Shown one piece after another: positions 2,786 to 20,974 of a DNA stretch of 64,000 nucleotides. The notes under the pieces are model-generated. The model was not told the DNA's origin. It was given only the letters and a program-made list of their open reading frames with translations, and searched no databases. The translations under genes were made by a program, and so were the position numbers. Position 1 is the stretch's first letter, and each line of letters begins with the position of its first letter. The stretch is taken from NCBI RefSeq assembly GCF_900115545.1, contig NZ_FOWV01000001.1:1-64000 (forward strand). Direction: 5' to 3'. This stretch comes from Ralstonia sp. NFACC01. Lineage in GTDB: Bacteria; Pseudomonadota; Gammaproteobacteria; Burkholderiales; Burkholderiaceae.

Positions 2786-2801
2786 TGCAATATGCGTACC
2801 A
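2786..2801 (-). promoter_or_regulatory. Sigma-54 promoter of the porin gene
   Basis: Read on the - strand the site is TGGTACGCATATTGCA. It matches the consensus TGGCACG-N4-TTGCW at all positions but one and has the required 10 bases between GG and GC. The predicted start would give a leader of about 95 nt. A CGCAACA half-site lies about 100 bp upstream at 2898-2904. Confidence 0.75.
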
Positions 2802-2897
2802 CGGCGTTCGCAGGGCATTGCAAGGAGTTGCATGCCGTTGATTAACGTTTGCGACACGTGCGCGGATGCGGGCGATGTGGCGTGACGGGACAGTCGG

Positions 2898-2904
2898 CGC
2901 AACA
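2898..2904. promoter_or_regulatory. CGCAACA half-site upstream of porin promoter
   Basis: This is the same heptamer that occurs as an inverted pair upstream of the PQQ dehydrogenase. It lies at a distance normal for an enhancer site of a sigma-54 activator. A single heptamer is weak evidence by itself; the position and recurrence give it weight. Confidence 0.4.
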
Positions 2905-2941
2905 CCTGTCCGCGGTCTGTTCAGCGATGGAGCAGCCGCGA

Positions 2942-3910
2942 TCAGGCGCTCGGCGCGCTTTGCATCCAGCGATCTTCGAGCTCGCGCCACGCACGTCCGA
3001 CGTTCAGCGCATGGCGGGGGTGGAAGTTGCGCCAGTCGCGATAGGCGTCGCCCGGGACGTACGCGAGAGCGCGCGCTGCGTCGCCATCGGCTTCAATGGC
3101 GCGCGTGATGGTGCTTGCGAGCATGTCGAGATACGACAGCGTTGGACGCAGCATCTGTGCGGGCGTGCCGATGGCGGTGCCGACGACGATGCTGGCGGGC
3201 AGTTGCATGAGCGCATGCAGCGCGCGCTGCCAGCCGATCAGCGAGCCCTCCTGCAGGTCCGGAATGCGCTGCCGATATGCCAGGCCACCTGCGCACAACA
3301 CCCCCCGCTGCGGCGCGTACAGCACCGTGTCCGATGCGCTGTGCGCCGCTGTGTGGACGTGGACCTGCCACGCTGTCTTGCCGGTGTGCAGCCAATCGCC
3401 ATCGCGCAGTGCCGGTTCCGGATACACGATCTGCGTTGCGTGCATGACGTGCGTACCCAGCATGGCGGTCAGGCGTGCAAGACACGTTTCGCAACGCTGG
3501 CGCATCAGGTCGGCAGTGGCGGCGGACGCCAGGAAGGCCGGGCGCGGCTGCAGTTGTGCGAAGGCGGCGTTGGCCAGCACATGCTCGGGATGCGCGTGCG
3601 TGTTGACCACCCAGCGGATGGGTTCGGCCGTGATGTGCCGGATGGCCGCGATCAGTTGGTGTCCCCATCGCACGTGCGGGCCAGGGTCGACCACGAGTAC
3701 GCCGTTGCCTGTGGTGTGTACCAGCGTGGGCACGACTTCTCCGGCATTCGCGCGTGAGGCTTCTGCGTTGGCAGCGCGGGCGGCGTACAGGCCATCCTGC
3801 AGACGCAACAGCGTGACGCGTGCGGGTACCGCAGACACTGCCGGAGCCGGAGCGATCAAGGTCGCGAGCATCATGTGCATCCAACGTCGCCGCACGGGGT
3901 CTGGCACCAT
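2942..3910 (-). CDS. Quinoprotein relay system metallo-beta-lactamase-fold protein 2, 322 aa
   Basis: A periplasmic MBL-fold protein of the kind found beside PQQ dehydrogenases and SoxYZ-like carriers; its reaction is not established. An N-terminal hydrophobic stretch ends near residue 28 (AVSAVPA). The first metal motif is present but altered: HAHPEH at residues 105-110, with Glu in place of the usual Asp. The region where the family usually has a GHG-type His near the C-terminus reads VVGTAIGTPAQ, without His. The gene starts 1 bp after the stop of the preceding metallohydrolase and is the last of a three-gene operon. Confidence 0.75.
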   Translation of the reverse strand: MVPDPVRRRWMHMMLATLIAPAPAVSAVPARVTLLRLQDGLYAARAANAEASRANAGEVVPTLVHTTGNGVLVVDPGPHVRWGHQLIAAIRHITAEPIRWVVNTHAHPEHVLANAAFAQLQPRPAFLASAATADLMRQRCETCLARLTAMLGTHVMHATQIVYPEPALRDGDWLHTGKTAWQVHVHTAAHSASDTVLYAPQRGVLCAGGLAYRQRIPDLQEGSLIGWQRALHALMQLPASIVVGTAIGTPAQMLRPTLSYLDMLASTITRAIEADGDAARALAYVPGDAYRDWRNFHPRHALNVGRAWRELEDRWMQSAPSA

Positions 3911-3911
3911 G

Positions 3912-4862
3912 TCAGGGCGCCAGCGCGGCGCGCTCGTAGCCGGGGTAGAAGCGGGTCACGTTGCGCGTGTACTCCGCGGGCATGCCACCCCACTGCGCGT
4001 AGGGCGCGTCTACCGGCATCGCAATCACCTCGGCCAGGTCGCGTCCTTCGGTTGCCGCGCGGCGCATGCGGGCATCGAGCCACTGCAGGTACTGACGTGT
4101 CTGCGCAATGGCGTCGGCGTTGCCCAGCGCGGGCCCGTGGCTGGGGATCAACAAGCGCGCGCCGCTGTCGGCAACGATCTTCTGCAGCCGATCGAGACTC
4201 GTCAGCCAATGCGCAATGTTGGCGTGCGGCGTGGTGGGAATCCGGTCGCGAAAAGCAATGCCGCCAGCGAAGACTACGCCGCTGGTCCGGTCCACCAGGA
4301 CGAGATCGTCGTCGGTATGTCCGTGGAGGCGGATGAGGTCGATGCGATGGCGCCCCATGGTGCGTGCTCCGGGGCTCAATGACGTGCCGGGCGGTGTCGA
4401 TACCGTGTTCTGCATCCACGCGCCGCAGATGCGGTAGAGATTGTCGGCATAGGCCGCGCCTTCGCGTTGCGCACCGGCAATGGTGCCGGGCAGCGCCTGG
4501 GCACCGACATCCGCATAGGCCTGGTTGCCGAAGAAATAGTCGGGATGTAGGTTGAGGTTGAACACCCAGCGCACCGGCGCCGATGTGACCGTGCGGATGG
4601 CCTGGCGCTGCTGTTCACCGTACAGCAGTGACGGCCCTGTGTTGATGACGAGCACGCCGTCGCCGGTATCAATAAAGCCGGTGTTGATGATGTTGCAGCC
4701 ATTGCGCGCCGAAAAATCTGCGTTGGCGCCTTCCAGCACCCAGACGCCGGGCGCAATTGCGTGCGGTACGAGGTGGTAATCGGGGCTTTCTGCGCGTGCG
4801 ATGGCAGTCAACATTGCCAGGCATAGCAGAAGGAAGCCCAATCGTGGATGCCGTCGGCTCAT
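3912..4862 (-). CDS. Quinoprotein relay system metallo-beta-lactamase-fold protein 1, 316 aa
   Basis: An MBL-fold protein with a signal peptide (residues 1-24, ending AIARA), paralogous to the gene after it. The canonical HxHxDH zinc motif reads N-L-H-P-D-Y at residues 104-109, so the first and third His are replaced. Later ligand regions remain recognisable as HGHTDDD and LIPSHGPAL. A full binuclear zinc site is therefore doubtful. The ATG overlaps the stop of the SoxYZ-like gene by 4 bp, which implies translational coupling. The family link to PQQ dehydrogenases comes from its usual gene neighbourhood and is met here. Confidence 0.75.
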   Translation of the reverse strand: MSRRHPRLGFLLLCLAMLTAIARAESPDYHLVPHAIAPGVWVLEGANADFSARNGCNIINTGFIDTGDGVLVINTGPSLLYGEQQRQAIRTVTSAPVRWVFNLNLHPDYFFGNQAYADVGAQALPGTIAGAQREGAAYADNLYRICGAWMQNTVSTPPGTSLSPGARTMGRHRIDLIRLHGHTDDDLVLVDRTSGVVFAGGIAFRDRIPTTPHANIAHWLTSLDRLQKIVADSGARLLIPSHGPALGNADAIAQTRQYLQWLDARMRRAATEGRDLAEVIAMPVDAPYAQWGGMPAEYTRNVTRFYPGYERAALAP

Positions 4863-5641
4863 CGTGTCACCTGTGCGCGGATGCGGTTGCCGTTGTTGTC
4901 GACGCCGGCCACGCTGATGCCGCGTTCAACAGGGCCATCCAGATCGAACGAGAAGATCGGGTTTTCGGCCACGGGTTCGTACAGCTTCAGTTCAAGCATG
5001 GGCTGACGCCGGGCATCGAGCAGATTGAGCTGCTCGATATGGAAGGACGGAATGCCCGCCACCAAGCCCGTGTCCATCGGATGCATCACGCGCAGGCGGA
5101 TGCGGCTGCCCGCGCCGTTGAAGCCCGGAAAAACGCGCGACTCGACCTGGTTCAGCGTGGCGCTCCACGTGGCGTCCTGGCGTGTGGCGCCGGGCAGCGT
5201 GCAGCCGCCGCCGGTGGCATCCACCTGGAAGGTACCGACATGCCAGACACCGTCCTGCGTTCGCGCCGCCACGCGCACCGCAGAGGCCTCCTGTAGCTTG
5301 AACCGGAACGACAGCGCCGGGCGCACGTGCATGGGGGCGAACTCCAGCACCTTGCGGATCGGGTTGCGGTCGACCACGACGACAATACGCTCCACCTTGC
5401 CGAGCGCTGACGCGTCAAACGCAATCGGCACCTGCATCGGGGCTTCCGCAAATGCCGGCCCGGTGATCCTGATGCGGCTGTCGAACGTTGTTCGCGCCGC
5501 GCCAAACACCTCCTGCTGAATCGTCGGCCAGAGCGGCGAGCCCGCCGGGTCGATATTCGTGTCGGCGCAGGCCGGCCAGGACAGGCACGCGACGGCCAGT
5601 GCGGCAGCGGCAGCGGCAGCATGGAGTGAAGCCGTTCTCAT
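4859..5641 (-). CDS. Quinoprotein dehydrogenase-associated SoxYZ-like carrier, 260 aa
   Basis: An exported protein that fuses a SoxY-like and a SoxZ-like half. In the thiosulfate Sox system SoxYZ carries sulfur intermediates on a Cys in a GGCGG tail. Here the SoxY half ends in an internal GGGC (Cys147) before the SoxZ-like half, so the carrier Cys is in a linker. The signal peptide ends near residue 25 (SWPACA). The start at 5641 is chosen because the signal peptide begins there and a sigma-54 promoter lies 37 bp upstream. Longer in-frame starts would cross that promoter. It is first in an operon with the two metallohydrolases. Confidence 0.8.
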   Translation of the reverse strand: MRTASLHAAAAAAALAVACLSWPACADTNIDPAGSPLWPTIQQEVFGAARTTFDSRIRITGPAFAEAPMQVPIAFDASALGKVERIVVVVDRNPIRKVLEFAPMHVRPALSFRFKLQEASAVRVAARTQDGVWHVGTFQVDATGGGCTLPGATRQDATWSATLNQVESRVFPGFNGAGSRIRLRVMHPMDTGLVAGIPSFHIEQLNLLDARRQPMLELKLYEPVAENPIFSFDLDGPVERGISVAGVDNNGNRIRAQVTR

Positions 5642-5677
5642 CGTGTGCCTTGGTAGGTTCAGATGAAAGGCCCGTGT

Positions 5678-5693
5678 TGCGAAAGTCATGCCA
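5678..5693 (-). promoter_or_regulatory. Sigma-54 promoter of the relay operon
   Basis: On the - strand the site is TGGCATGACTTTCGCA. It has GG-N10-GC spacing and two mismatches to TGGCACG-N4-TTGCW. It places the transcript start roughly 25 nt before the SoxYZ-like ATG. It faces away from the aldehyde dehydrogenase promoter at 5846-5861. Confidence 0.6.
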
Positions 5694-5754
5694 TGCGTGC
5701 TTGGTGTCCGCACGCGCGTCCATCGGGTCTTCAGGTGATGGGGCGTTGAGCTTT

Positions 5755-5768
5755 GCAACACCTGTTGT
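5755..5768. promoter_or_regulatory. GCAACA-CC-TGTTGT site between divergent sigma-54 promoters
   Basis: GCAACA and TGTTGT face each other across two bases, roughly midway between the two outward-facing sigma-54 promoters. The hexamers match the half-sites found upstream of the dehydrogenase, pedF and the porin. Activator binding here could serve both directions. Confidence 0.5.
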
Positions 5769-5845
5769 TCCATTCTGGAGCACTCTCGCAAGCCGATTGG
5801 CGTGAACAGTCGATGCGCAGTGGATGCAGCATCCGCCGCAGGGGA

Positions 5846-5861
5846 TGGCCCGGGTTTTGCA
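5846..5861 (+). promoter_or_regulatory. Sigma-54 promoter of the aldehyde dehydrogenase gene
   Basis: The site is TGGCCCGGGTTTTGCA, with exact GG-N10-GC spacing and one mismatch in the -24 block; the -12 TTGCA is perfect. The predicted start is about 55 nt before the aldehyde dehydrogenase ATG. Confidence 0.8.
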
Positions 5862-5927
5862 GATGACGATCGGACACAGCGCAGACAACGACGCTGCGGT
5901 CATCACTCAAACATCAGGAGACAACCC

Positions 5928-7448
5928 ATGCGTTACGCTCATCCCGGCACTCCCGGCGCCATCGTTTCGTTCAAGCCGCGCTATGGCAATTTCATCGGTG
6001 GCGAATTCGTGTCGCCGGTCAAGGGCCAGTACTTCACCAACACCACGCCGGTGACGGGCGAGGTGATCGGCGAGTTCCCGCGCTCGACCGCGGAAGACAT
6101 CGACCGCGCGCTCGACGCCGCCCATGCTGCCGCTGACGCCTGGGGTCGTACCTCAGTGCAGGACCGCTCGCTGATCCTGCTGAAGATCGCCGACCGCATC
6201 GAGCAGAACCTCGAGCTGCTGGCCGTGACCGAAACGTGGGACAACGGCAAGCCCGTGCGTGAAACGCTGAACGCCGACATTCCGCTGGCTGTCGACCACT
6301 TCCGCTACTTCGCTGGCTGCATTCGCGCGCAAGAAGGTTCCGCTGCCGAGATCAACGAGCACACCGTGGCCTATCACATCCACGAGCCGCTGGGCGTGGT
6401 CGGCCAGATCATCCCGTGGAACTTCCCGCTGCTGATGGCTGCATGGAAACTGGCGCCTGCGCTGGCTGCCGGCAACTGCGTGGTGCTCAAGCCGGCCGAG
6501 CAGACGCCGCTGGGCATCTGCGTGCTGATGGAACTGATTGGCGATCTGCTGCCCGCGGGCGTGCTCAACGTCGTGCACGGCTACGGCAAGGAAGCCGGCG
6601 AGGCACTGGCCACCAGCAAGCGCATCGCCAAGATCGCCTTTACGGGCTCGACGCCGGTGGGTTCGCACATCATGAAGTGCGCGGCCGAAAACATCATCCC
6701 GTCGACGGTGGAGCTGGGCGGCAAGTCGCCCAACATCTACTTCGAAGACATCATGCAGGCCGAGCCGAGCTTCATCGAGAAGGCCGCTGAAGGCCTGGTG
6801 CTGGGCTTCTTCAACCAGGGCGAGGTGTGCACGTGCCCGTCGCGCGCGCTGGTGCAGGAATCCATCTACAGCCGCTTCATGGATGCGGTGATGACCAAGG
6901 TGGCTGCCATCAAGCGCGGTGACCCGCTCGACACCGACACGATGGTTGGCGCGCAGGCTTCGGAGCAGCAGTTCTACAAGATCCGCAGCTACCTGGAGAT
7001 CGCGCAGGAGGAAGGTGCCGAATGCCTCGTCGGCGGCGATGTGGAAGTGCTGCCCGGCAATCTGTCGAAGGGCTACTACATCAAGCCGACGCTGCTCAAG
7101 GGCGACAACAGCATGCGCGTGTTCCAGGAAGAGATCTTCGGCCCGGTGATTGCCGTGACGACCTTCAAGGACGAAGCGCAGGCACTGCAGATCGCCAATG
7201 ACACCGATTTCGGCCTGGGCGCCGGTCTGTGGACGCGCGACATCAACCGCGCGTACCGCGTGGGCCGCGCCATCAAGGCGGGACGCGTGTGGACGAACTG
7301 CTACCACCTGTATCCGGCGCACGCGGCGTTTGGTGGCTACAAGAAGTCGGGCGTGGGCCGCGAGACCCACAAGATGATGCTCGACCACTATCAGCAGACC
7401 AAGAACCTGCTGGTGAGCTACGACACCAAGCCGCTGGGCTTCTTCTGA
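5928..7448 (+). CDS. NAD-dependent aldehyde dehydrogenase, AcoD/ExaC-type, 506 aa
   Basis: Oxidises the aldehyde produced by the periplasmic dehydrogenase to the acid in the cytosol. Typical class-3 ALDH features are visible: PWNFP (about residues 163-167), FTGSTPVG, catalytic Glu262 in VELGGKSPN and nucleophile Cys301 in NQGEVC. The length of 506 aa agrees with the AcoD/ExaC group. There is no signal peptide. The start at 5928 is chosen because AGGAG lies 7 nt upstream and the family N-terminus (MRYAHPG) begins there. A sigma-54 promoter precedes it, as for other acetaldehyde or ethanol-inducible ALDH genes. Confidence 0.9.
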
Positions 7449-7546
7449 TGGTGTAGCAGGACGGCTGGCGCATGGTCATCGACACCCGTGCGCCAGCCGC
7501 TGACCTGCGAGGCAAAGACGTCGCCGGCGAAAAAAGAAGAGGAGAC

Positions 7547-7609
7547 ATGGCCGTGTGCCAACCATTTGCACTGCCGCAACGCGCGCAGGTGTCCCCCCAT
7601 TGCCGCTGA
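7547..7609 (+). CDS. Possible 20-codon leader peptide upstream of the TonB receptor
   Basis: An ATG at 7547 is preceded by AAGAGGAGAC, one of the best ribosome-binding sites in the region. It opens the short frame MAVCQPFALPQRAQVSPHCR and stops at 7607-7609. The peptide is rich in Cys, His, Pro and Arg near its end. The A of its TGA stop is also the first base of a perfect hairpin. This resembles regulatory upstream ORFs that control downstream transporters, such as the copper-responsive CruR leader of Bordetella TonB receptors. No sequence similarity to CruR is claimed. Confidence 0.4.
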   Translation: MAVCQPFALPQRAQVSPHCR

Positions 7610-7627
7610 TTCCCGGTCGGGAATAGC
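7606..7627 (+). promoter_or_regulatory. Hairpin directly after the leader peptide
   Basis: ATTCCCG (7609-7615) pairs perfectly with CGGGAAT (7618-7624) across a two-base loop. Beyond one bulged base the stem continues with GCT and AGC. There is no T run, so it is more likely a translational or processing element than a terminator. It begins on the stop codon of the 20-codon frame and lies about 80 nt before the receptor start. Confidence 0.5.
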
Positions 7628-7705
7628 CCTCGCCACGCTTCCACTTTGGGATGTGCCGTTGGCGCGCCCGGGCTCGGCGAACGAGAAACACCAGGGAGAC
7701 ACTCC

Positions 7706-10327
7706 GTGCATTCGAATACCAGCCGTTCGGGCAAGGACGCCAGCCGTCTGCGCAACGCCGCGCCACGTCTGGCAGGCGGGGTGGCGGCGCTCGCTGCCGC
7801 AGGCCTGTACTCGCCGGCGTTTGCCGAGGACCAGATCATTGCGGTGGCGTTGCCCACCGCCCAGGTTGTCGGCTCAACCCCGATCGACAGCATTGGCGTC
7901 CCGCTGTCGCAGTTCCCTGCCAATGCGCAGCGCATTAGCGCAAAGGATGCGCGCGAGCAACGCAGCTCGAATCTGGCGGACCTGCTGAACGACAACCTCG
8001 GCCAGGTCAGCATCAGCAATGGATCGGGCAATCCGTACCAGAACGACATCAACTACCGCGGGTTCCAGGTGTCTTCGCTGCTGGGCGTGCCCATTGGCGT
8101 ATCGGTCTACTTTGATGGCGTGCGGATGAACGAGCCCTTCGGCTCCATCGTGAACTGGGACCTCATTCCCATGAATGCGATGTCCAGCGTCAACATCCTG
8201 CCGGGCTCCAATCCGATGTTCGGCCTCAACACCTTGGGTGGCGCGCTTGTCGTCAACACCAAGAACGGAAAGGACAACGCCGGCACGTCGATCGAGGCGC
8301 TCGGCGGGTCGTTTGGCCGCCGGGCGCTGAGCTTCGAGACGGGCGTCGTCGACAAGGCCCACGGCACCGATTACTTCGTCGCCGGCAACATCGACCGGCA
8401 AGACGGCTTTCGCGACCACTCGGGTTCGAACGTCAAACAGCTTTATGGGAAAGCGCGGTGGCACGGCAACGACGGCGCTACTCAACTGGAGCTGTCGGCT
8501 GCGCTGGCAGATACCTCGCTGAGCGGCACGCAGTCGTTGCCGATGGACATGATGGCGAACCGCAGCGCGGCCTATACGTGGCCCGACACCATCTCAAACC
8601 GGATGGCGATGCTGAACCTGAAGGGCAGCCATTGGTTGAACGACACCAATCAACTGGCCGGCAGCTTTTACTACCGCAAGGCGAACCTGCACAACGTCAA
8701 CAGCAACGCGCAGCTGGACGACGGCTGCTTCAATGACGACGGTTCGTTGGCGACGACCACCGCAGGTGGCATCACCGGCTACAAATGCGCGAACAAGGCG
8801 CCGAACGGCACGGCAGTAAATGCCGTGACCGGCGCCAATGCGCTCGCGCTGGGCTACGGCCGCTGGACGAACGCCATCAACACGAGCGTCGTCGATTCCG
8901 CTACGCATGAAGACACGGTGGGCTCGTCCCTGCAGTGGTCGAATTTCAGCCAGCTGGCGGGGCACAACAATACGTTCACGGTTGGCGGTGCGTTCGACCA
9001 CTCGCGCATCACGTATGACCAGACGACTTATCTGGCACGGTTGATCAACTATCAGACGGTGGTGATCCCGAATCAAACGTACGGATTCACCGCCAACGGA
9101 TCGGCGCCGTCGGCGTCGAACCCGGCTTTGTTCACAGGCAGCAACGTGATCGGTGCGGTCAACCTGTCGTCCAACGTCAACAACTTCAGCGCGTACTTCA
9201 CCGATACGTTCAGCGTGACGGACAAGCTGAGCGTGACCGCATCCGGCAGCTTCAACTACACGACGCTCAACCAAGGCGGCGCCAACAATAGGTATCTGAA
9301 CGAAGACGGCGGTTACGCCTGGACGGACGATGTATCGGGCGTGTCGTACTACAACCCCGGCTACGCGAACGCCTACAGGTATTCGAACGCCGGATCGGGC
9401 GCCGCATCCGCCCCGAACGGGATCCCGGCAGGCGCAGTGGCCGGGCCGGAAACCAACAGTCTGGCCGGCTCGCATCACTATCACCGGTTCAATCCGGCAT
9501 TGGGATTCAACTACGACCTCGGGGCCGGGCAGGGCATCTTCGGCAGCTATAGCGAATCGATGCGCGCGCCGACATCGATCGAGCTGTCTTGCGCCGATCC
9601 AAACAGCCCGTGCTCGCTGCCGACCGGGTTCAACGGCGATCCAGACCTGAAAGCCGTGGTGGCCAAAACCGTCGAGTTCGGCGGTCGCGGAAAGCTGGGC
9701 AAGTCCACCTACTGGAGTGCGTCTGTCTATGACTCGCGCCTCAGCAATGACATCCAGTTCATCGCCACGTCAAACACGTACGGCTACTTCGCCAACGTCG
9801 GCAAGACGGAGCGGCGTGGCTTTGAGCTGGGCGCAAGCACGAAGATCGACAAGTGGTCGTTGTCGGCCAACTTTGGTTATGTCGATGCGATCTACAAGTC
9901 GGCATTCACCACGGCCAGCGGGCAGAACGTGGTCAGCGGCAACAAGATCCCCGGCATACCCGCGAAGACGCTCAAGCTTGGCGCGTCGTACACCTTCAGC
10001 CCGAACCTGTCGATGGGCGGGAACGTGATCCTGGTCAGCAAGCAGATCGCGCACGGTAACGAAAGCAATGCCGACCCGAACGGCCAGGTGGCCGGCTACG
10101 GCCTCGTCAATCTGAACCTGCACTACAAGCCGACAAGCAACCTCGAAATCTCGGCGTACATCAGCAACCTGTTCAACAAGCGCTATTCCACGTACGGCCT
10201 GTCGGGCATGCGGAGCATCTACACGCTGGCGACGCAGCAGTTCATGACGCCAGCGCCGCCACGCGCAATCTGGATTGGCCTGACGTATTCGTTTGGAGGC
10301 AAAGCCTCCAGTGCCGACAAGGACTGA
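7706..10327 (+). CDS. TonB-dependent outer-membrane receptor, 873 aa
   Basis: An active-uptake receptor with an N-terminal plug and a 22-stranded barrel. The plug blocks are visible: DLLNDNLGQVSISNGSG, NDINYRGFQVSSLLGVPIGV and FDGVRMNEPFGS, then NTLGGALVVNTKNGK. GTG at 7706 is chosen as start because AGGGAGAC precedes it and a signal peptide (ending YSPAFA) follows. A clear TonB box cannot be named, though AQVVGSTPI may serve. The C-terminus has a short polar tail after the last aromatic YSF. It lies between the aldehyde dehydrogenase and the PQQ-associated genes. A role in taking up a lanthanide chelate or PQQ is an inference from that position. Confidence 0.85.
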   Translation: MHSNTSRSGKDASRLRNAAPRLAGGVAALAAAGLYSPAFAEDQIIAVALPTAQVVGSTPIDSIGVPLSQFPANAQRISAKDAREQRSSNLADLLNDNLGQVSISNGSGNPYQNDINYRGFQVSSLLGVPIGVSVYFDGVRMNEPFGSIVNWDLIPMNAMSSVNILPGSNPMFGLNTLGGALVVNTKNGKDNAGTSIEALGGSFGRRALSFETGVVDKAHGTDYFVAGNIDRQDGFRDHSGSNVKQLYGKARWHGNDGATQLELSAALADTSLSGTQSLPMDMMANRSAAYTWPDTISNRMAMLNLKGSHWLNDTNQLAGSFYYRKANLHNVNSNAQLDDGCFNDDGSLATTTAGGITGYKCANKAPNGTAVNAVTGANALALGYGRWTNAINTSVVDSATHEDTVGSSLQWSNFSQLAGHNNTFTVGGAFDHSRITYDQTTYLARLINYQTVVIPNQTYGFTANGSAPSASNPALFTGSNVIGAVNLSSNVNNFSAYFTDTFSVTDKLSVTASGSFNYTTLNQGGANNRYLNEDGGYAWTDDVSGVSYYNPGYANAYRYSNAGSGAASAPNGIPAGAVAGPETNSLAGSHHYHRFNPALGFNYDLGAGQGIFGSYSESMRAPTSIELSCADPNSPCSLPTGFNGDPDLKAVVAKTVEFGGRGKLGKSTYWSASVYDSRLSNDIQFIATSNTYGYFANVGKTERRGFELGASTKIDKWSLSANFGYVDAIYKSAFTTASGQNVVSGNKIPGIPAKTLKLGASYTFSPNLSMGGNVILVSKQIAHGNESNADPNGQVAGYGLVNLNLHYKPTSNLEISAYISNLFNKRYSTYGLSGMRSIYTLATQQFMTPAPPRAIWIGLTYSFGGKASSADKD

Positions 10328-10348
10328 GCCCCCGTAGAAGAGACGATC

Positions 10349-11984: not shown

Positions 11985-12027
11985 GCCGCGGTCGTCGCGT
12001 GCTGCGTTCATTGCCCTGCTCCATTTC

Positions 12028-12069
12028 GCAACAGAACACACGATGTGTTGCGGTATGGCACGCAACACC
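12028..12069. promoter_or_regulatory. Three CGCAACA/TGTTGCG half-sites upstream of the dehydrogenase
   Basis: CGCAACA lies at 12028-12034, TGTTGCG at 12047-12053 and CGCAACA at 12062-12068. The last two form an inverted repeat with 8-bp arms (GTGTTGCG and CGCAACAC) and an 8-bp spacer. The group lies 45-90 bp before the candidate sigma-54 promoter, where an enhancer for the AcoR-like activator would be expected. This is the richest copy of the motif in the window. Confidence 0.65.
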
Positions 12070-12114
12070 GCACTGCAAGCTGGTTGAAACCGCGATTTCC
12101 CGGTGTTTTTTGAT

Positions 12115-12130
12115 GGCACGGGATTTGCCC
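12115..12130 (+). promoter_or_regulatory. Near-consensus sigma-54 promoter of the dehydrogenase gene
   Basis: TGGCACGGATTTGCCC has a perfect -24 block and a TTGC -12 block, but only 9 bases separate GG and GC where 10 are normal. Loss of one base usually harms sigma-54 promoters, so this is either a weak or unusual promoter or a chance match. Confidence 0.45.
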
Positions 12131-12142
12131 TGAGTCCGACCG

Positions 12143-12156
12143 GTGTGACATCACAC
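12143..12156. promoter_or_regulatory. GTGTGA-CA-TCACAC palindrome in dehydrogenase leader
   Basis: Perfect 6-bp arms are separated by two bases, between the promoter candidate and the ribosome-binding site. It could be an operator for a second regulator or an RNA hairpin. The regulator is unknown. Confidence 0.35.
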
Positions 12157-12196
12157 TGCCGGACCTGGACCATAAATAGAGGTAGAGGAGACAAGA

Positions 12197-13951
12197 ATGA
12201 GGACACTACGAGTGATTGCACTTGCAGCTGCCATGGCGGCTGCAAGCGTTGCCGTGCACGCGGCAACGCCCCCCGTTACCGATGCCATGATCGAGAACGA
12301 CGCGAAATCGTCGAACGACGTGCTGACCTGGGGCATGGGTACGCAAGGGCAGCGCTTCTCGACACTCACCAAGATCAACACAAAAAATGTCGGCCAGCTC
12401 GTGCCGGCATGGTCGTTCTCGTTTGGTGGTGAGAAGCAGCGCGGGCAGGAAGCCCAGCCGCTGATCTACAACGGCAAGATGTTCGTCACGGCGTCGTACT
12501 CGCGCATCTACGCGATCGACCTGAAGACCGGCAAGAAGCTGTGGAAGTACGAGCAGCGTTTGCCGGAAGGCATCATGCCTTGCTGCGACGTCGTCAACCG
12601 TGGTGCCGCGCTGTACGACAATCTCGTCATCTTCTCTACGCTGGATGCGCAACTGATCGCGCTCAATCAGGACACCGGCAAGATCGTCTGGAAAGAGAAG
12701 ATCGAAGACTACGCCGCCGGCTACTCGACGACCGCCGCACCGCTGATCGTGAAGGGCATGGTGCTGACGGGCGTGTCGGGTGGCGAGTTTGGCGTGGTAG
12801 GTCGCGTGGAAGCGCGCGACGCCAAGACCGGCCAGTTGATCTGGTCGCGTCCGACCGTCGAAGGCCACATGGGCTACAAGTACGACAAGGACGGCAACAA
12901 GACCGAGAATGGCATGACAGGCACGCTCAACGCGAGCTGGCCTGGCGAGACGTGGAAGACCGGTGGCGCATCGACGTGGCTGGGCGGCACGTATGACGCG
13001 CAGACCAACCTCGTCTACTTCGGCACCGGCAACCCGGGGCCGTGGAACAGCCACCTGCGCAAGGGCGACAACCTGTATTCATCGTCGACGCTGGCCATCA
13101 ACCCGGACACCGGCAAGATCGTCTGGCACTACCAGAACACCCCCAACGACGGCTGGGATTTCGACGGCGTGAACGAGTTCGTGACGTTCGATATGGACGG
13201 CAAGCGCGTCGGCGGCAAGGCCGATCGCAACGGCTTCTTCTATGTGAACGACGCCAAGACCGGCAAGCTGCTCAACGCGTTCCCGTTCGTGAAGGTCAAC
13301 TGGGCCACCAGCATCGACCTCAAGACCGGCCGCCCGAACTACGCACCGGACCACCGCCCAGGCGATCCGTCGCAGGCCACGGGTGAAGAGAAGAAGGGCA
13401 AGGCCGTGTTTGCCGAGCCCGGCTTCCTGGGCGGCAAGAACCAGATGCCGATGGCATACAGCCCGCAAACCGGCCTGTTCTACGTGCCCGCCAACGAGTG
13501 GGGCATGGACATCTGGAACGAGCCCGTCAGCTACAAGAAGGGCGCGGCCTACCTGGGTGCCGGCTTCACCATCAAGCCACTCAATGAGGATTACATCGGC
13601 GCACTGCGCGCGATCAACCCGAAGACCGGCAAGATCGAATGGCAGATCAAGAACAACGCGCCGCTGTGGGGTGGTGTGATGACGACTGCCGGCGGCCTGG
13701 TGTTCTGGGGCACGCCCGAGGGCTACCTGAAGGCGGCTGATGCCAAGACCGGCAAGGAGCTTTGGGAATTCCAGACCGGCAGCGGCATCGTTGCGCCCCC
13801 CGTCACCTGGGAAGACAACGGCGAGCAATTCGTGGCCGTGGTGTCGGGCTGGGGTGGTGCAGTGCCGCTGTGGGGCGGTGAAGTGGCCAAGCGCGTGAAC
13901 TTCCTGGAGCAGGGCGGTTCGGTTTGGGTGTTCAAGCTGCACAAGAACTGA
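12197..13951 (+). CDS. PQQ-dependent alcohol dehydrogenase, lanthanide type predicted, 584 aa
   Basis: A periplasmic eight-bladed quinoprotein that oxidises primary alcohols (ethanol or 2-phenylethanol-like substrates) to aldehydes and reduces cytochrome c. The signal peptide ends SVAVHA (residue 22). The adjacent Cys129-Cys130 pair sits in MPCCD. Metal ligands are Glu197 (GGEFG), Asn279 (GTGNPGPWN) and catalytic Asp321. Asp323 follows two residues later in WDFDG. Calcium enzymes (ExaA, PedE, MxaF) have Ser or Ala there, whereas lanthanide enzymes (XoxF, PedH) have Asp. A GAGGAG site precedes the ATG. Length fits the ExaA/PedH group; no C-terminal heme domain is present. Confidence 0.9.
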
Positions 13952-14028
13952 CGTGCTGAGTTGAGCGCTGTGCGCCCTGTGTGGCGCGCAGCCTCTCGCA
14001 CAGCTTCATGGAGTTTCAGATCGTGATC

Positions 14029-14355
14029 ATGCGTAATGGAGTGTTTTCGTTGCTGGCGGTAGCGTGCGCAGCAATTGGCGCGGCACCCGCCCACGCCGCC
14101 CCTGACATGCAGGCCCTGGCCGACAGGAGCGGCTGTTTCTCGTGCCACAGCATGCATGCCAAGATCGTTGGCCCAGCCTTTGCCGACGTGGCCGCGAAGT
14201 ACAAGGGCGATGCTGATGCGCCGACCAGACTGGCGCAGAAGGTACGAGACGGCGGCAAGGGCACGTGGGGCCGCATTCCAATGCCTCCGCATCCCAACCT
14301 CAAGGAAGACGAGGCGAAGCAATTGGTGGCCTGGGTGCTAAGTTCGGGCTCGTAA
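14029..14355 (+). CDS. Small class I cytochrome c, 108 aa
   Basis: A periplasmic c551/c552-like electron carrier. A signal peptide ending PAHA is followed by one heme motif CFSCH, and a Met ligand is likely in PMPPH near residue 85. It lies about 80 bp after the dehydrogenase gene and can accept its electrons. GGAG at 14010-14013 fits a GTG start at 14023 better than the ATG at 14029; both give the same mature protein. A terminator follows. Confidence 0.85.
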   Translation: MRNGVFSLLAVACAAIGAAPAHAAPDMQALADRSGCFSCHSMHAKIVGPAFADVAAKYKGDADAPTRLAQKVRDGGKGTWGRIPMPPHPNLKEDEAKQLVAWVLSSGS

Positions 14356-14380
14356 GTCTCTACGTTGCTTGCAAGGGAGG

Positions 14381-14412
14381 AGGGCCGGCATTGTCCGGCC
14401 CTTTCTTTTCTT
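14381..14412 (+). terminator. Terminator after the dehydrogenase-cytochrome pair
   Basis: AGGGCCGG (14381-14388) pairs with CCGGCCCT (14395-14402), followed by a T-rich tail. It separates this operon from the convergent pqq operon. Confidence 0.85.
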
Positions 14413-14425
14413 CTATGACCGCGCT

Positions 14426-15628: not shown

Positions 15629-15872
15629 GTTTGACAAAGGCGTGGACCTCCGGAGCGATGCCCTGCACGCCAAAGGCGGATTGCAGGTCATCGATCAGCA
15701 TGTCGAGGGTATGGGCGCCGTCGCAGCGCTGCAGGATTGCGGCCGCGCTGTCATTGAGCGTGACCATGCCCTCGGGGTACAGCAGCACCCAGCTCTGCTG
15801 CATGTCTTCCCATTGCAGCCGGAAGGTCCGGTGCAGCATGGGGTGGGCTGGATCAGGCAAGGGAGGGCTCAT
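15600..15872 (-). CDS. pqqD: PQQ biosynthesis peptide chaperone PqqD
   Basis: A 90-residue RRE-fold protein that binds PqqA and presents it to PqqE. The family pattern is present: [20 protein letters not shown] followed by the CDG and FV helix. Its length fits stand-alone PqqD. The ATG at 15872 overlaps the end of pqqC by 20 bp, and its own stop lies inside pqqE. Confidence 0.93.
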
Positions 15873-16563
15873 GTGCGTGGGCCTGTTGGATGGCATCGAG
15901 CATCGACCAGAGGATGTCGAGCTTGAACTGCAGGATGTCCAACGCACGCTGTTGCTGCTCGGGCGTGCGGAAGTAGTCGAGGGTCACGCGCAGGCCGTGC
16001 TCGACGTCGCGCGAGGCCAGCGGAATGCGCGAGCGGAAGTACGCCAGCCCTTCTGGCTGCACCCACGGATAGTGATCGGGCCAGCCGGCCAGCCGCTCCT
16101 TGTGGATGTCCGGCGCGAACATCTCCGTGAGCGAGGAGCACACCGCCTCCTGCCACGGCGCACGGCGCGCAAAGTTCACATACGCATCCACCGCAAAGCG
16201 CACGCCCGGCAGCAGATACCGGTGAGACCACAGTGTGTCGCGCGTCAGCCCCACGGCTTCGCCCAGCCGCACCCAGCTTTCGATGCCGCCAGGGCGTGTC
16301 TCGTCACCGTCGTGATCATGAATGCGGACGATCCACTCGCGTCGCGTTGCGCGGTCAGGGCAGTTGGACAGGATGGCCGCATCCTTGAGCGGGATGTTGA
16401 CCTGGTAGTAGAAACGGTTCGCAACCCACGTGCGGATTTCCTCCGGCGTGCATTCGCCGGCGCGCATGCGCAGGTTGAACGGATGATGGATGTGATAGCC
16501 CGCCTGCTTCGCGCGCAACCGCGCTTCGAAGTCTTCGGCCGTCCACGCAACAGGATGTGTCAT
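15853..16563 (-). CDS. pqqC: Pyrroloquinoline-quinone synthase PqqC
   Basis: Catalyses the last step of PQQ formation, ring closure and an eight-electron oxidation by O2 without a metal or cofactor. The 236-aa length and conserved blocks ([44 protein letters not shown]) are typical. The ATG overlaps the pqqB stop by 4 bp. Confidence 0.95.
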
Positions 16564-17477
16564 AGCGAGATTTCCATGCCGTCGTAAGCCACCTCGATGC
16601 CGTGCGCCTCCAACTCGCGGCGCTGCGGCGAATCTTCATCGAGGATCGGGTTGGTGTTGTTGATGTGGATGAGCACCTTGCGCGTTGCCGGCAACTGGTC
16701 GAGCACTTCAATCATGCCGCCCGGGCCCGATTGCGCGAGGTGGCCCATGTCGCCTGCCGTCTTGGTTGAAAAACCAAGGGCGAGCATCTCGTCGTCCTGC
16801 CAGCAGGTGCCGTCCACCAGCACCACGTCGGCCGCCCCCAGTTCGTCGAACACATGCGGTTCGACGCGGGCAAGGCCGGGCGCGTAGAACGCACGCCGGC
16901 CGCTCTTTCTGTCGACGATGCGCACGCCGATGTTGTCGCCCACGCGGCGGGCATTGCGGCTGGGCGAATAGGGCGGCGCCTTGCTCTCCAGCGGGATCGC
17001 CGTCAACGCTACGTCGTCAAGCGGAGGCACTGAGAACGCCGTGCCGTCCAACGCGAGCGCGCGCGTGTCGAGACCGCAGTAGTGCGACAACATGCGTGTG
17101 AGCGGGAAAGCGGTGGACAGATCGCTGATGACCGCCGCGCTGGCATAGACGGGCAGCGCTTGCCGATGCTCGCGCAGCATCAGCAGGCCGGTCACGTGGT
17201 CGATCTGCGCATCGATCAGCACGACGCCAACGATGCCAGTATCACGCGGCGTGCGCGCGGGTTGCAGCGCCGGTGAATTGCGCAGCTGCGCGAGGATGTC
17301 CGGCGAGGCGTTCACCACGATCCAGTTGTGTTGGCCATCGCCGAGTGCGATGGACGACTGCGTGCGGGGGGTGGCACGCACGGTGCCGCGCCGCACGCCA
17401 TCGCAATTGCGACAGTTGCAGTTCCACTGTGGAAAACCGCCGCCGGCGGCCGAGCCGAGAACCCTGAGTATTGTCAT
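16560..17477 (-). CDS. pqqB: PQQ biosynthesis protein PqqB
   Basis: A metallo-beta-lactamase-fold protein thought to act as an iron-dependent hydroxylase on the excised Glu-Tyr dipeptide. It has the diagnostic [15 protein letters not shown] near the start with paired Cys (CNCRNC), and [13 protein letters not shown] as the metal motif. The length of 305 aa is standard. About 140 bp with a strong terminator separate it from pqqA, so it is expected to be made at a much lower level than PqqA. Confidence 0.95.
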
Positions 17478-17556
17478 GATGCAGATCCAACGTGTCGGGC
17501 GGATTGAGCAAGAAGTCGGCCAGGGGATGGCGAGAAAGCGTGCGAGCCGCGAGCCG

Positions 17557-17589
17557 AAAAAAAACCCGCCGTGAAGAACCGGCGGGCTT
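17557..17589 (-). terminator. Terminator between pqqA and pqqB
   Basis: On the - strand a GC-rich stem (CCCGCCG with CGGCGGG, plus flanking pairs) is followed by a run of eight T. It lies 30-60 bp after the pqqA stop, inside the operon, so most transcripts should end after pqqA. This is an attenuating arrangement known from other PQQ operons. Confidence 0.85.
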
Positions 17590-17619
17590 GTGGAGCCTTG
17601 CGTGCTCAGCCGCGCAGCA

Positions 17620-17694
17620 TCAGCGGTTGGCGATGTACATGGTGATCTCGAACCCGAGTCGCAGTTCGGTGTAGGCGGGCGTTGTCCAGTTCAT
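17620..17694 (-). CDS. pqqA: PQQ precursor peptide PqqA, 24 aa
   Basis: The ribosomal peptide whose Glu16 and Tyr20 become PQQ. The frame has exactly 24 codons, with Glu16 and Tyr20 in FEITMY, the invariant E-x-x-x-Y spacing, and starts [19 protein letters not shown] precedes the ATG. It is too short for usual gene finders. It is the first gene of pqqABCDE and divergent from the peptidase-like gene at 17799. Confidence 0.97.
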
Positions 17695-17798
17695 GTCTCC
17701 TCCTTGAGGGTTGGCATAGTTAGTGAGTGCACTGCGTTGTTCAGCGGCTGACGCAGGCGTTTGCCGAACACAGCCGCATCGCCATCAAGGCAACATCC

Positions 17799-18743
17799 AT
17801 GCCCACTTTCGACTGGTCAACCACATCCGCCCGCTTCAATCTGCGCACGCCGGACGGCCATTGCCTGCATGTGCGCCAATGCGGGCCCGACAGCGGCGAA
17901 CCATGGCTGGTGCTGCATGGCGGCCCCGGCAGCGGCTGCACACCTTCAATGGCCGCGTGGTTCGATCCGCTGCTGCATCGCGCCGTGCTGCCGGACCAGC
18001 GCGGCGCCGGGCGTTCACGGCCGGCGGGCACGCTACGGCGCAATACGGTGACCGCGCTGCTGGCCGATCTTGAGCAACTGCGCGTCGCACTTGGCATTGA
18101 GCGTTGGGGCGTGGTCGGTGGGTCATGGGGTGCAGCGCTGGCACTGGCCTACGCCGATCGCTTTCCCGATGCCGTATCGGCACTCGTGCTGCGCGGCGCT
18201 TTCCTGACCGGTTTCGACGATGTGCAGGCGCTGTTCAACGCGCGCGGCGCCGGCCGTGATCTCTTGCGAAGCATCGCTGGGCGAGGTGAGGGTTTTCCCG
18301 CAGCCCGTGGTCGCCTTCTCGTTGCAACAGACATGTTGCAGCTTGGTACAACTGTTCAGAAATTGAACATCGCCCGGGCGTGGCAGCACGCGGAACAGCG
18401 GCTGTTGGGATTGCGTCCGCAGGCACGTCGCCAGACGTGGCCGGAGCAGCTGGCGTTGGTGCGCAAGTACCAACTGCAGGCGCATTACCTGTATCGGCGG
18501 GCGGGGCTCGGGAAATCTGCGTTGCTGCTGGCGGCTGCGCGCATCGGTGCGAGGGGATTGCCCGTCACGCTGCTGCATGGGCGCAAAGACAACGTTTGCC
18601 GACCCGGCAATGCGCTGCGGTTGTCTGCAGCGAATCCGCATGCGCGGCTGGTGTGGGTGCCTGGCGGGCACCTCGCGGTGGGCGAGATGGCGAAAGCGCT
18701 GGGCGCTGCCATCCGTGCGTCGGCGTGGTCAGTCGGTATCTGA
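17799..18743 (+). CDS. Alpha/beta-hydrolase, proline iminopeptidase-like, 314 aa
   Basis: A cytosolic serine hydrolase of the prolyl aminopeptidase family, which removes N-terminal Pro from peptides. HGGPGSG forms the oxyanion region, DQRGAGRS follows, and the nucleophile Ser is in GGSWGAAL. The likely acid and base are in GRKDNVC and GGHLAVGE. No signal peptide is seen. It is divergent from pqqA, and no PqqF-type protease occurs in the window. A part in trimming the PqqA peptide is therefore conceivable but unproven. An in-frame ATG at 17727 would add 24 residues without a clear ribosome site. Confidence 0.75.
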   Translation: MPTFDWSTTSARFNLRTPDGHCLHVRQCGPDSGEPWLVLHGGPGSGCTPSMAAWFDPLLHRAVLPDQRGAGRSRPAGTLRRNTVTALLADLEQLRVALGIERWGVVGGSWGAALALAYADRFPDAVSALVLRGAFLTGFDDVQALFNARGAGRDLLRSIAGRGEGFPAARGRLLVATDMLQLGTTVQKLNIARAWQHAEQRLLGLRPQARRQTWPEQLALVRKYQLQAHYLYRRAGLGKSALLLAAARIGARGLPVTLLHGRKDNVCRPGNALRLSAANPHARLVWVPGGHLAVGEMAKALGAAIRASAWSVGI

Positions 18744-20753
18744 GGGCAGGCCGCCGGCTTCGTCGATCCTGCGGTAGATCGTGTTGCGCGAAATGCCGAG
18801 CGCCTTGGCAGCAGCGGAGATGTTGCCGTTGTGCGCCTTCACGGCCGCCATGATGGCCATGCTCTCCACATCGGCCAGCCGCTTGGGCTGCGTGCCGCCA
18901 ACGGTTTGAGCGACAGGCGGCGCAGCCGCTGCCACCGCGCCTGCCCCTGCCACGTTCGCAGCCGGCTGGTCACCATGCCGCGCCTGCCAGTCTTCAAGAA
19001 AATCGTCGGGCAGATGGTCCTCGGTGATCTCCGGCGCGCCTTCCGCCATCAGCCGGGCGGTGCGCAGCAGATTGCCGAGCTGGCGGATGTTGCCGGGCCA
19101 GTGGTAGCTGCGGAACATCTGCATCACGGCTTCGCTGATGGGGGGCGCGTCGGCCTGTTCGAGCTTCAGCAGCTTGTCGGCTACGACGTCCAGGTCGGTG
19201 CGCTCGCGCAATGCAGGCAGGCGCACGACCAGCCCGTTCAGGCGGTAATACAGGTCTTCGCGGAACTGCCCGCTGGCCACCATCTCGCGCATGTTGCGGT
19301 GGGTCGCGCATACGACCGCCACATCCACCTGGATCAGCTTGTTGCTCCCCAGCGGCGAAACCGCACGCTCTTGCAGCGCGCGCAGCAGGCGGGCTTGCAG
19401 GTGCAGCGGCATGTCGCCGATTTCGTCGAGGAAGAGCGTGCCGCCGTTGGCCAGCACCATCTTGCCGATGCCGCCTTTCTTGCGCGCGCCCGTAAAGGCG
19501 CCTTCTTCGTAGCCGAACAGTTCGGATTCAATCAGCGCTTCCGGAATCGACGCGCAATTCACGGCGATGAAGGGGCCGGCGTGGCGCGGGCTGTCGGCGT
19601 GGATGGCGCGCGCGAGCAGTTCCTTGCCGGTGCCCGTTTCGCCCAGGACCATGACAGGGATGTCCTTGCCGATGACCTTGCGCAGCTTGCCGATCACGGT
19701 CTGGATCTGCGCGTCGCCGGTATCCAGCGCCTCCAGGCTGGCCGGTTGCCGGGATGGCTCGATGTAGGCCCGGCGCGGTGCTGTGTCGCGGTCGATCGAA
19801 AGATCTGCGCCCATCGCGCCGCCCACCATGTGGCTGGCCGGCCGTTTCCATTCGACGCGCGCAAACACCTTCACGCCGCTGGGCAACTGCAACTGCACGA
19901 TGCCTGCCGCTGCGGTGCGTTCCCGGTCGATCAACTGCGACATCGACAGCCCGAACAGCGAGGAAAAGGTATGTGCATGCAGCGCGCGGATCGACAGGCC
20001 AAGCTGGAATTCGCCGCTGCGGTTGGCCGACAGGAAGCGCCCCGCTGGCGTGAACGCCGCAATGCCCTCGACCAGCGTGCCGATGAATTCAGGGCGCGAG
20101 TGGAAGTGGATGCAGACCACGTCCTGGAACGTGTTGGCAAACAACTGATTCTCGATCATCTGCGCCGACATGCGCACCAGCGCCATGGTGTGCTTGTGGA
20201 AGCCACGATGATCACCCGTCACATCGAGCGCACCCACGGTGGCGCCGTACGGATCGAAGATCGGCGCACACGAGCAGGTGAGGAACTGGTTGGCCTGCAA
20301 GTAATGCTCGGAGCCGTGGACCAGCGTGGGTTTGCTCTCGGCCAACGCCGTGCCGATGGCGTTGGTGCCGCGGCTCGCTTCCGACCACAGCGCGCCGGGC
20401 TGCAGCGCCACCTTGCTGGCCTGAGCGAGGAAATCGTCGTCCCCCATCGAATGCAGGATCAGGCCTGACGTGTCGGTCAGGATCACCATACTCTGCGTGT
20501 TGACGATCTGGCTGTAGAGCGTCTCCATCACGGGCAGCGCATGCGTGAACAGCGACTGGCTGCGCTCGATCTCGGTTTTCAGCTCGTTGTGCAGCACCGG
20601 GCAAAAGTCGGGCGACTCATAGGGCCGCAGGCCGTACGACTTGGATCGCTCGTGGGACTGCGCGATCAGTTCGGGCTGATCGTTCGGGGCATCACCGAGC
20701 GCGGCTGGGGCGTTCTCGGAAGCGCGCGGGTCGGCTGCCGCGTGAGGGGTCAT
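18729..20753 (-). CDS. Sigma-54-dependent Fis-family activator, AcoR-like, 674 aa
   Basis: A bacterial enhancer-binding protein. An N-terminal sensory part with a GAF-type domain (about residues 70-330) precedes an AAA+ domain. That domain has Walker A GETGTGKE (371-378) and GAFTGA (418-423), the loop that contacts sigma-54. A Fis-type helix-turn-helix lies at the end ([16 protein letters not shown]). The whole layout is that of AcoR and related acetoin or alcohol regulators. AGGAGA precedes the ATG. It is the likely activator of the sigma-54 promoters before the porin, relay, aldehyde dehydrogenase and pedF genes. Its inducer is unknown. It overlaps the convergent peptidase gene by 15 bp. 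Confidence 0.88.
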
Positions 20754-20834
20754 GGTGTGTCTCCTAAAACCTCGCCCGCAATCTGTGTGCGGGTCGCCCG
20801 GATCGCCTCATTTGAGCAGGATGCGAACCGGAAG

Positions 20835-20872
20835 TGTTGCGCCATGAAGCAAGACCCTTGCCAGGGTGTTGC
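20835..20872. promoter_or_regulatory. Two TGTTGC half-sites upstream of pedF
   Basis: TGTTGCG at 20835-20841 and TGTTGC at 20867-20872 are in the same orientation, about 90-120 bp before the pedF promoter. They repeat the heptamer seen upstream of the dehydrogenase. They also lie upstream of the regulator gene, which reads the other way, and could allow autoregulation. Confidence 0.45.
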
Positions 20873-20958
20873 ATTCCTGAGCACCTGTGCCAACCGATGC
20901 ATCCGAGATCCGGAGCGTTTGGCGGATGTTGGCCGTGTCCTCCGGCAGGTTTGCGCCT

Positions 20959-20974
20959 TGGTATGGCTCTTGCA
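20959..20974 (+). promoter_or_regulatory. Sigma-54 promoter of pedF
   Basis: TGGTATGGCTCTTGCA has exact GG-N10-GC spacing and a perfect TTGCA -12 block, with two mismatches in the -24 block. It lies 46 bp before the TTG start of pedF. Confidence 0.75.

Follow-up and report, generated by a model that had tools for sequence, protein, structure and literature searches.

The first 64,000 nucleotides of contig NZ_FOWV01000001.1 of Ralstonia sp. NFACC01 (the window) contain a gene cluster for periplasmic alcohol oxidation. An earlier reading of this DNA, which we call the original prediction, proposed that the cluster is one sigma-54 regulon, probably run by an AcoR-like activator encoded within it. 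We analyzed the genes of the cluster, the -24/-12 promoters and activator-binding sites predicted upstream of them, and the conservation of both elements in related genomes.

Family searches identified a porin gene (1550-2680, minus strand) and a relay operon that encodes a SoxYZ-like carrier (4859-5641) and two metallohydrolases (3912-4862 and 2942-3910). These are followed by genes for an ExaC-like aldehyde dehydrogenase (ALDH; 5928-7448), a TonB receptor, a beta-propeller protein, a cytochrome b561, and a pyrroloquinoline quinone (PQQ)-dependent alcohol dehydrogenase (12197-13951) with a cytochrome c gene after it. The PqqA peptide is encoded at 17620-17694 on the minus strand, with pqqB, pqqC, pqqD and pqqE following on the same strand. 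An alpha/beta hydrolase gene, the activator gene, pedF (cytochrome c550; 21020-21505) and a solute-binding protein gene complete the cluster. The ped/exa gene set (PQQ alcohol dehydrogenase, PedF cytochrome c550, ExaC and the pqq genes) is present. Matches over cut-off were TIGR03075, TIGR04494, NF050026 (ExaC), TIGR02109, TIGR02108, TIGR02111 and TIGR03859 and, in the relay operon, TIGR04557 for the carrier and TIGR04558 for one zinc metallohydrolase; the second metallohydrolase matched TIGR04559 and TIGR04558 below cut-off. The dehydrogenase is 99% identical to that of 'Burkholderiaceae bacterium 26'. The ExaC of the cluster is the only close one in its own genome (the next is 38% identical), and that genome has two rpoN genes.

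The AcoR-like activator is encoded at 18729-20753 on the minus strand. The original prediction had described it as containing GAFTGA, and this is so: GAF, Sigma54_activat and HTH_8 domains matched, and the order of GAF domain, AAA+ sigma-54 interaction domain with GAFTGA and Fis-type helix-turn-helix (HTH), with the helix GISRNTIYR, is that of AcoR-like activators. No acoXABC acetoin genes were found among the genes identified from 1550 to 22481; the rest of the window and the genome were not searched for aco.

We found -24/-12 promoter elements before six transcription units of the cluster. Four sites had been claimed with exact GG-N10-GC spacing, and all four are present: before the porin gene (2786-2801, minus strand, TGGTACGCATATTGCA), the relay operon (5678-5693, minus strand, TGGCATGACTTTCGCA), the ALDH gene (5846-5861, plus strand, TGGCCCGGGTTTTGCA) and pedF (20959-20974, plus strand, TGGTATGGCTCTTGCA), the last perhaps also serving the solute-binding gene after it. 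A near match claimed before the dehydrogenase gene lies at 12114-12129 (plus strand, TGGCACGGGATTTGCC) and probably also serves the cytochrome c gene. Two promoters were absent from the original prediction: the activator's own (20848-20863, minus strand) and, probably, that of pqqA. We scored all positions on both strands of the window with a sigma-54 weight matrix based on Barrios-type frequencies. The five claimed sites and the activator site took ranks 1-6 (ALDH 1, dehydrogenase 2, porin 3, pedF 4, activator 5, relay 6). Six sites in the window scored at least 15, compared to 1.0 expected from 30 simulated windows. Because the matrix was written after the sites of the original prediction had been seen, conservation is better evidence than these scores.

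Our analysis identified a palindrome of 17 bp, TGTTCC-N5-GGAACA, as the conserved operator. Upstream of the -24 element, GCAACA/TGTTGC was the most enriched 6-mer in the dehydrogenase and pedF sets and GGAACA/TGTTCC in the ALDH set, and alignments showed that both are arms of the same palindrome. A palindromic operator model was built by expectation-maximisation from random seeds, using 86 promoters of relatives (without Ralstonia L001-L003) upstream of dehydrogenase, ALDH and pedF genes and none upstream of porin, relay, activator or pqq genes. All five refined runs reached the consensus CTGTTCCAnnnTGGAACAG with log-likelihoods of 827.5-828.7, compared to 32-40 for three shuffled sets, for which fewer starts and iterations were used. 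This de novo model found operators at every promoter named in the original prediction, including that of the porin gene.

The best model matches in the window were, in order, the main operator between the divergent relay and ALDH promoters (5766-5782, TGTTCCATTCTGGAGCA, also a match to the strict pattern described below), dehydrogenase operator a (12017-12033, TGCTCCATTTCGCAACA), a site in the hydrolase gene, the porin operator (2918-2934, TGTTCAGCGATGGAGCA), and then both pedF operators (20835-20851 and 20867-20883). Weaker second operators lie at 5744-5760 (CGTTGAGCTTTGCAACA), common to relay and ALDH, and at 12046-12062 (TGTTGCGGTATGGCACG; dehydrogenase operator b). Operators are mostly paired, with starts 19-32 bp apart, and the porin operator is single. 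They lie about 50-120 bp from the -24 element at the five named promoters.

The original prediction had placed TGTTGC/GCAACA half-sites upstream of all its promoters. The half-sites are there, with 59 (35 + 24) in the window. Those at the porin (2899) and relay (5675, at the relay -12) promoters are outside the conserved operator; those at the remaining named promoters are arms of 17-bp palindromes. The arm sequence of the earlier operator idea was retained, and the lone half-site was replaced by a palindrome that is usually paired. We rejected TGTTGC/GCAACA as a whole operator, and no exact pairs of it at a single fixed spacing were found in the window.

A scan of the genome with promoter and half-site models had been suggested along with the original prediction. 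A genome-wide -24/-12 pattern had 36 matches and its reversed control 29, about equal, and in the window the bare consensus at up to 3 mismatches had 311 matches versus 357 expected. We therefore rejected consensus scans alone as uninformative. We then derived a strict operator pattern from the five main operators of the window. It has only 19 places in the 5.37 Mb genome, and 7 of these fall in the window: the five main operators themselves, a place within the hydrolase gene and a place at 17603, where pqqA ends. The reversed pattern had 2 forward and 3 reverse matches in the genome. Of the 12 places outside the window, 11 were examined and only one (L102) had a -24/-12 element scoring at least 12 within 300 bp; it is located where what is probably a coding frame ends.

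We found that the pairing of the two elements was specific to the cluster. In the window, exactly the five promoters named in the original prediction had a -24/-12 element and an operator that both scored at least 14 within 300 bp of each other. Neither the 100 simulated windows nor the 105,141 bp examined from other loci of the same genome had any such pair. These results bear on the possibility that the sites are chance matches picked from a G+C-rich window. The flat counts for the bare consensus and the near-equality of the genome-wide pattern with its reversed control are what chance would give. In contrast, the top six matrix sites of the window are all at starts of cluster genes, paired elements were absent from the simulated windows, and the elements are conserved across genera and above flanking DNA (below). 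We consider an origin by chance extremely improbable.

Both elements were conserved throughout the genus. We compared 11 Ralstonia genomes (eight further genomes, L001, L002 and the window; thresholds 9.5 and 10). Both elements were found in 11/11 at the porin, relay, ALDH, dehydrogenase, pedF, activator and pqqA promoters. Neither was found in any of the 11 before the genes for the TonB receptor, the propeller protein, both metallohydrolases, cytochrome c or pqqE. Results were mixed for pqqB (-24/-12 element in 11, operator in 4), hydrolase (2 and 4), cytochrome b561 (4 and 0) and solute-binding protein (0 and 2). With 0, 0 and 4 of 11 for the -24/-12 element and 0 of 11 each for the operator, the TonB-receptor, propeller and cytochrome b561 genes were rejected as members. 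The TonB-receptor gene has no promoter of this kind of its own; since no terminator-like site was found in 7300-7900, read-through from the ALDH gene is possible.

The motifs stand out from the DNA around them, clearly in three regions and modestly at the porin gene. Invariant columns in motifs and outside them were 66/72 versus 87/202 for relay/ALDH, 50/55 versus 66/141 for the dehydrogenase, 63/67 versus 97/179 for activator/pedF, and 25/36 versus 114/216 for the porin. In individual elements, 17/17 columns were invariant in the ALDH -24/-12, 18/19 in each of the two weaker second operators, and 19/19 in pedF operator 2.

Conservation extended beyond the genus. We examined the best 80 of 584 related dehydrogenase loci in other genomes, with a threshold of 12 unless stated. 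A -24/-12 element preceded the dehydrogenase gene in 58/80 loci, the ALDH gene in 16/17, pedF in 15/15 and the activator gene in 24/45, among them every one of the 12 loci scored from Ralstonia and Cupriavidus. Such elements were absent before pqqE (0/19), solute-binding protein (0/31), metallohydrolase 1 (mbl1; 0/14), hydrolase (0/12) and TonB (0/2) genes, and were found before some cytochrome c (1/29), propeller (1/5), soxYZ (2/14) and pqqB (7/19) genes. Both elements together were found at dehydrogenase (54/80), ALDH (16/17), pedF (15/15), activator (22/44) and porin (2/2) genes, at 2/13 soxYZ and 2/19 pqqB genes, and at almost none of the controls (pqqE 0/19, solute-binding protein 0/31, hydrolase 0/12, mbl1 0/14, cytochrome c 1/29); counts for b561 (0/4), propeller (0/4) and TonB (0/2) were also zero. 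The operator alone was present at 60/80 dehydrogenase and 39/44 activator genes, compared to 4/14 for mbl1, 4/29 for cytochrome c and 1/31 for solute-binding protein.

We found that the operator sequence changes with the recognition helix of the activator. TGTT arms accompany activators with the helix SRNTIYR or SRNTVYR. Three distant loci (L065, L073 and L075) have the helix GRATLYR and a perfect TGTCTC-N5-GAGACA before the dehydrogenase gene, and no TGTTCC palindrome with up to 2 mismatches was found in their 62 kb. The other activator loci had 119 TGTTCC and 15 TGTCTC matches in 919 kb. Burkholderiaceae genomes with the helices SRATIYR or SRATLYR have TGTCGC or TGTCTC operators. The Ala occurs in two helix backgrounds. 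We counted strict palindromes in 83 classed loci with one helix match each (others were dropped; some genomes are counted twice). With Asn in the helix (74 loci), operator position 4 was T 15, A 1, G 1 and C 0, from 16 of the 74 loci. With Ala (8 loci, all 8 with palindromes), it was C 10 and T 0, and the one locus with Thr had T 1. The covariation had a Fisher's p of 3e-7, without correction for kinship. When the palindrome was allowed any base at position 6, the counts became 48 T, 16 C, 3 A and 2 G for Asn, 12 C for Ala and 1 T for Thr.

The covariation addresses a second alternative, in which the -24/-12 elements are real and the palindromes belong to some other regulator (a different enhancer-binding protein or a repressor), with the cluster activator serving other promoters. 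The genome does hold 13 matches to the activator, and binding to the operator is predicted only. Against this, the operator letter follows the helix residue (15 T and no C with Asn, 10 C and no T with Ala). A pattern search of the 13 matches found the SRNTIYR helix in the cluster activator alone, and 39/44 loci have operators upstream of their activator gene. We think it quite improbable that another regulator owns these sites. We infer that the cluster activator runs the regulon in this strain.

The activator gene is probably itself a new member of the regulon. In the window, its -24/-12 element sits between the two pedF operators: operator 1 (found in 11/11 Ralstonia and supported by column conservation) overlaps the activator -12, and operator 2 is just upstream of the activator -24. 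Operators that adjoin or overlap the activator's own promoter are unlike the usual enhancer position. Because this promoter is between and partly under its own operators, the arrangement suggests autoregulation, which may act by feedback repression or by co-activation. Among 13 loci with homologs of about 60% identity (L144, of the same genus, and L169-L180, of other genera), 10 have a -24/-12 element scoring at least 12 shortly before the activator gene. As a separate observation, the activator leader contains a hairpin (CCCGCA-N7-TGCGGG, 20775-20793, minus strand) a little upstream of the ribosome site. Alignment showed CCCGCG...CGCGGG at this hairpin in several Cupriavidus relatives, a compensated pair.

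The pqqABCDE genes are probably also a new member, with an operator pair inside the neighboring hydrolase gene. A weaker -24/-12-like element precedes pqqA (17789-17804, minus strand, GGGCATGGATGTTGCC), and tandem operators at 18334-18350 and 18353-18369 probably serve this promoter from about 530 bp away. We surveyed 20 loci for PqqA; the search pattern missed the peptide in 6, and two Variovorax loci had a related site. GGGCATGGWTGTTGCC was present 82-111 bases before PqqA in 12/12 Ralstonia and Cupriavidus loci in which the peptide was found. In 11 of these 12, the hydrolase gene contains two operators 556-565 bp further up, with starts 19 bp apart; L006 is the exception, with a single operator passing the threshold.

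Two further observations concern this operator pair. Within Ralstonia, codons of unchanged residues were identical at 7/10 positions under the pair and at 48/192 elsewhere in the hydrolase gene (Fisher 0.005). For both genera together the counts were 2/5 versus 8/127 (Fisher 0.046); Cupriavidus alone gave no clear excess (2/7 versus 31/147). The hydrolase gene of Cupriavidus amp6 (L015) is decayed. Two remnants, both weak matches (residues 187-214, E 0.002; residues 17-32, E 0.24), can still be aligned where the gene would be expected, and they are the stretches holding the operator pair and the -24/-12 element, now 132 bp apart. The corresponding distances in Variovorax are 132 and 133. In the loci with about 60% homologs, pqqB adjoins the activator gene in 8/13, the gap contains one or two palindromes in 8/8, and it contains a -24/-12 element scoring at least 12 in 4/8. 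A -24/-12-like site also lies directly before pqqB in the window (17507-17522, minus strand, TGGCCGACTTCTTGCT); it is constant in 11/11 Ralstonia, with an operator nearby in 4/11. Between pqqA and pqqB we noted a terminator-like hairpin followed by eight T (17557-17586, minus strand), which might control how much PqqA peptide is made relative to the enzymes.

Several observations weigh against a single regulon of this extent. The sigma-54 matrix was written with the sites already in view. The operator model was trained on dehydrogenase, ALDH and pedF genes that were also counted in the conservation test, and the loci compared are relatives, so their counts are not independent. Operators alone precede some control genes, mbl1 and cytochrome c among them. 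Twenty-two of the 80 dehydrogenase promoters have no -24/-12 element scoring at least 12 (14 of these 22 have an ALDH gene close upstream on the same strand), and four loci (L006, L031, L040 and L046) have the dehydrogenase -24/-12 and no operator at that threshold; L006 carries the activator at 81% identity. Of the five loci with about 60% homologs in which pqqB does not adjoin the activator gene, three (L171, L175 and L177) lack an operator of this class in the vicinity. Close activator paralogs exist in other genomes, and cross-talk is possible there. Finally, the pqqA -24/-12 scores only about 10, with G in place of T before GG, the relay promoter is found in Ralstonia only (the 2/13 soxYZ loci), and conservation at the porin gene is modest.

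The last three points would fit a narrower regulon of ALDH, alcohol dehydrogenase and pedF only, with at least one of the porin, relay and pqq elements non-functional or under another sigma-54 activator; that no clear codon constraint is seen under the operator pair in Cupriavidus alone points the same way. In contrast, the porin operator was found by a model never shown a porin gene, all elements are kept in 11/11 Ralstonia, relay and ALDH share one operator pair, and other genera have palindromes directly before pqqB. We regard the narrower regulon as unlikely. Its content overlaps the core of our interpretation, that this activator acts through this operator to control ALDH, dehydrogenase and pedF, and we hold that core to be very probable.

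The proposal that one activator ties substrate entry, oxidation, electron transfer and the relay into one sigma-54 regulon is thus well supported at the sequence level by conservation and covariation. Our results are most consistent with the following model, for which the DNA sequence shows the promoters and operators, how far they are conserved and that they covary with the helix of the activator. The GAF-AAA+-Fis activator would sense an alcohol or its oxidation product, bind the 17-bp palindromes, and remodel RpoN-carrying RNA polymerase at the -24/-12 promoters. These promoters would serve the porin gene, the SoxYZ/metallohydrolase relay operon, and the genes for the ExaC-like ALDH, the PQQ-alcohol dehydrogenase, PedF and the activator, and probably pqqABCDE. 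Because promoters of one activator would serve all of these, entry, oxidation, electron transfer, cofactor supply and the regulator would respond together. A broader notion is that a Burkholderiales sigma-54 family runs quinoprotein alcohol oxidation including cofactor synthesis, that helix Asn reads TGTT and Ala reads TGTC, that the pqqA enhancer in a neighboring coding sequence outlives the decayed gene, and that a promoter wedged between its own operators limits or tunes itself. We offer this notion tentatively, as a serious possibility that falls a little short of what we would expect to hold in full.

Parts of this arrangement resemble known systems, as far as the portions of the cited accounts that we consulted describe them. 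In R. solanacearum GMI1000, rpoN1 is needed for growth on ethanol, and the AcoR-like enhancer-binding protein Rsc3129 is predicted to control the ExaC Rsc3128 (PMC4676750). By description, that system is like the one in the window: the same genus, an AcoR-like regulator and an ExaC target. The account deals with a single predicted target (PMC4676750); the operator, PQQ dehydrogenase, relay, porin, pqq genes and autoregulation come from our reading of the window. The Pseudomonas ped/exa system likewise has PQQ dehydrogenases, PedF, ALDH, a porin, and SoxYZ-like and SoxH-like proteins, and AgmR (ErbR, PedR1) activates the core ped genes and a separate pqq operon (PMC12997753). AgmR is LuxR-type (PMC12997753), whereas in the window a sigma-54 enhancer-binding protein with its own operator probably has that role.

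AcoR is the acetoin regulator of Cupriavidus necator (PMC7057948) and Bacillales (PMC10018347) and, like the window activator, a metabolite-sensing sigma-54 activator; in Bacillus its operator is a palindromic region of around 30 bp (PMC10018347). The AcoR regulon concerns acetoin, and that of the window quinoprotein alcohol oxidation. BmoR of Thauera butanivorans is, by description, similar in being an alcohol-responsive bacterial enhancer-binding protein with an upstream inverted repeat and a sigma-54 promoter; it controls the BMO promoter, with an upstream activating sequence 193 bp upstream (PMC8899819). In insect-associated Burkholderiaceae, a sigma-54-dependent Fis-family regulator in the same region as PQQ genes is among upregulated genes (PMC9088363).

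We found no description of this operator or regulon in the open-access literature. AcoR-like sigma-54 regulons are of a known kind; because of that literature result, we judge the complete quinoprotein pathway under one to be new. A plausible gene neighborhood thereby becomes a testable regulon with a defined operator. Our results suggest that Ralstonia, Cupriavidus and their relatives use a sigma-54 enhancer-binding protein where Pseudomonas uses the LuxR-type AgmR. One signal would govern, in Ralstonia, both the dehydrogenase and the SoxYZ/metallohydrolase relay, which is poorly understood, and probably PQQ synthesis as well. From the covariation of helix and operator comes a simple recognition rule for a Fis-type domain, and a single mutation could test it.

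We made several further observations on activator relatives. In L065, L073 and L075, the activator gene adjoins a soxYZ-metallohydrolase-dehydrogenase cluster and is divergent to it. The L073 record is titled as a Klebsiella pneumoniae metagenome-assembled genome; its cluster resembles Rhodocyclaceae/Betaproteobacteria records, and it is probably mislabelled. L145 and L146, of the same genus, have a second activator paralog (53%) with its own pair of operators of the same class before a divergent -24/-12 element. C. necator A5-1 has an ortholog of the activator at 77% identity, with the operators and promoters also conserved in that strain, and further matches at 57%, 37% and 37%. In the first 1.4 kb of L123, the C. 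necator paralog (57%) has no operator of this class and is beside an apparent zinc alcohol dehydrogenase and a small protein, which we take to be of the DUF779 type.

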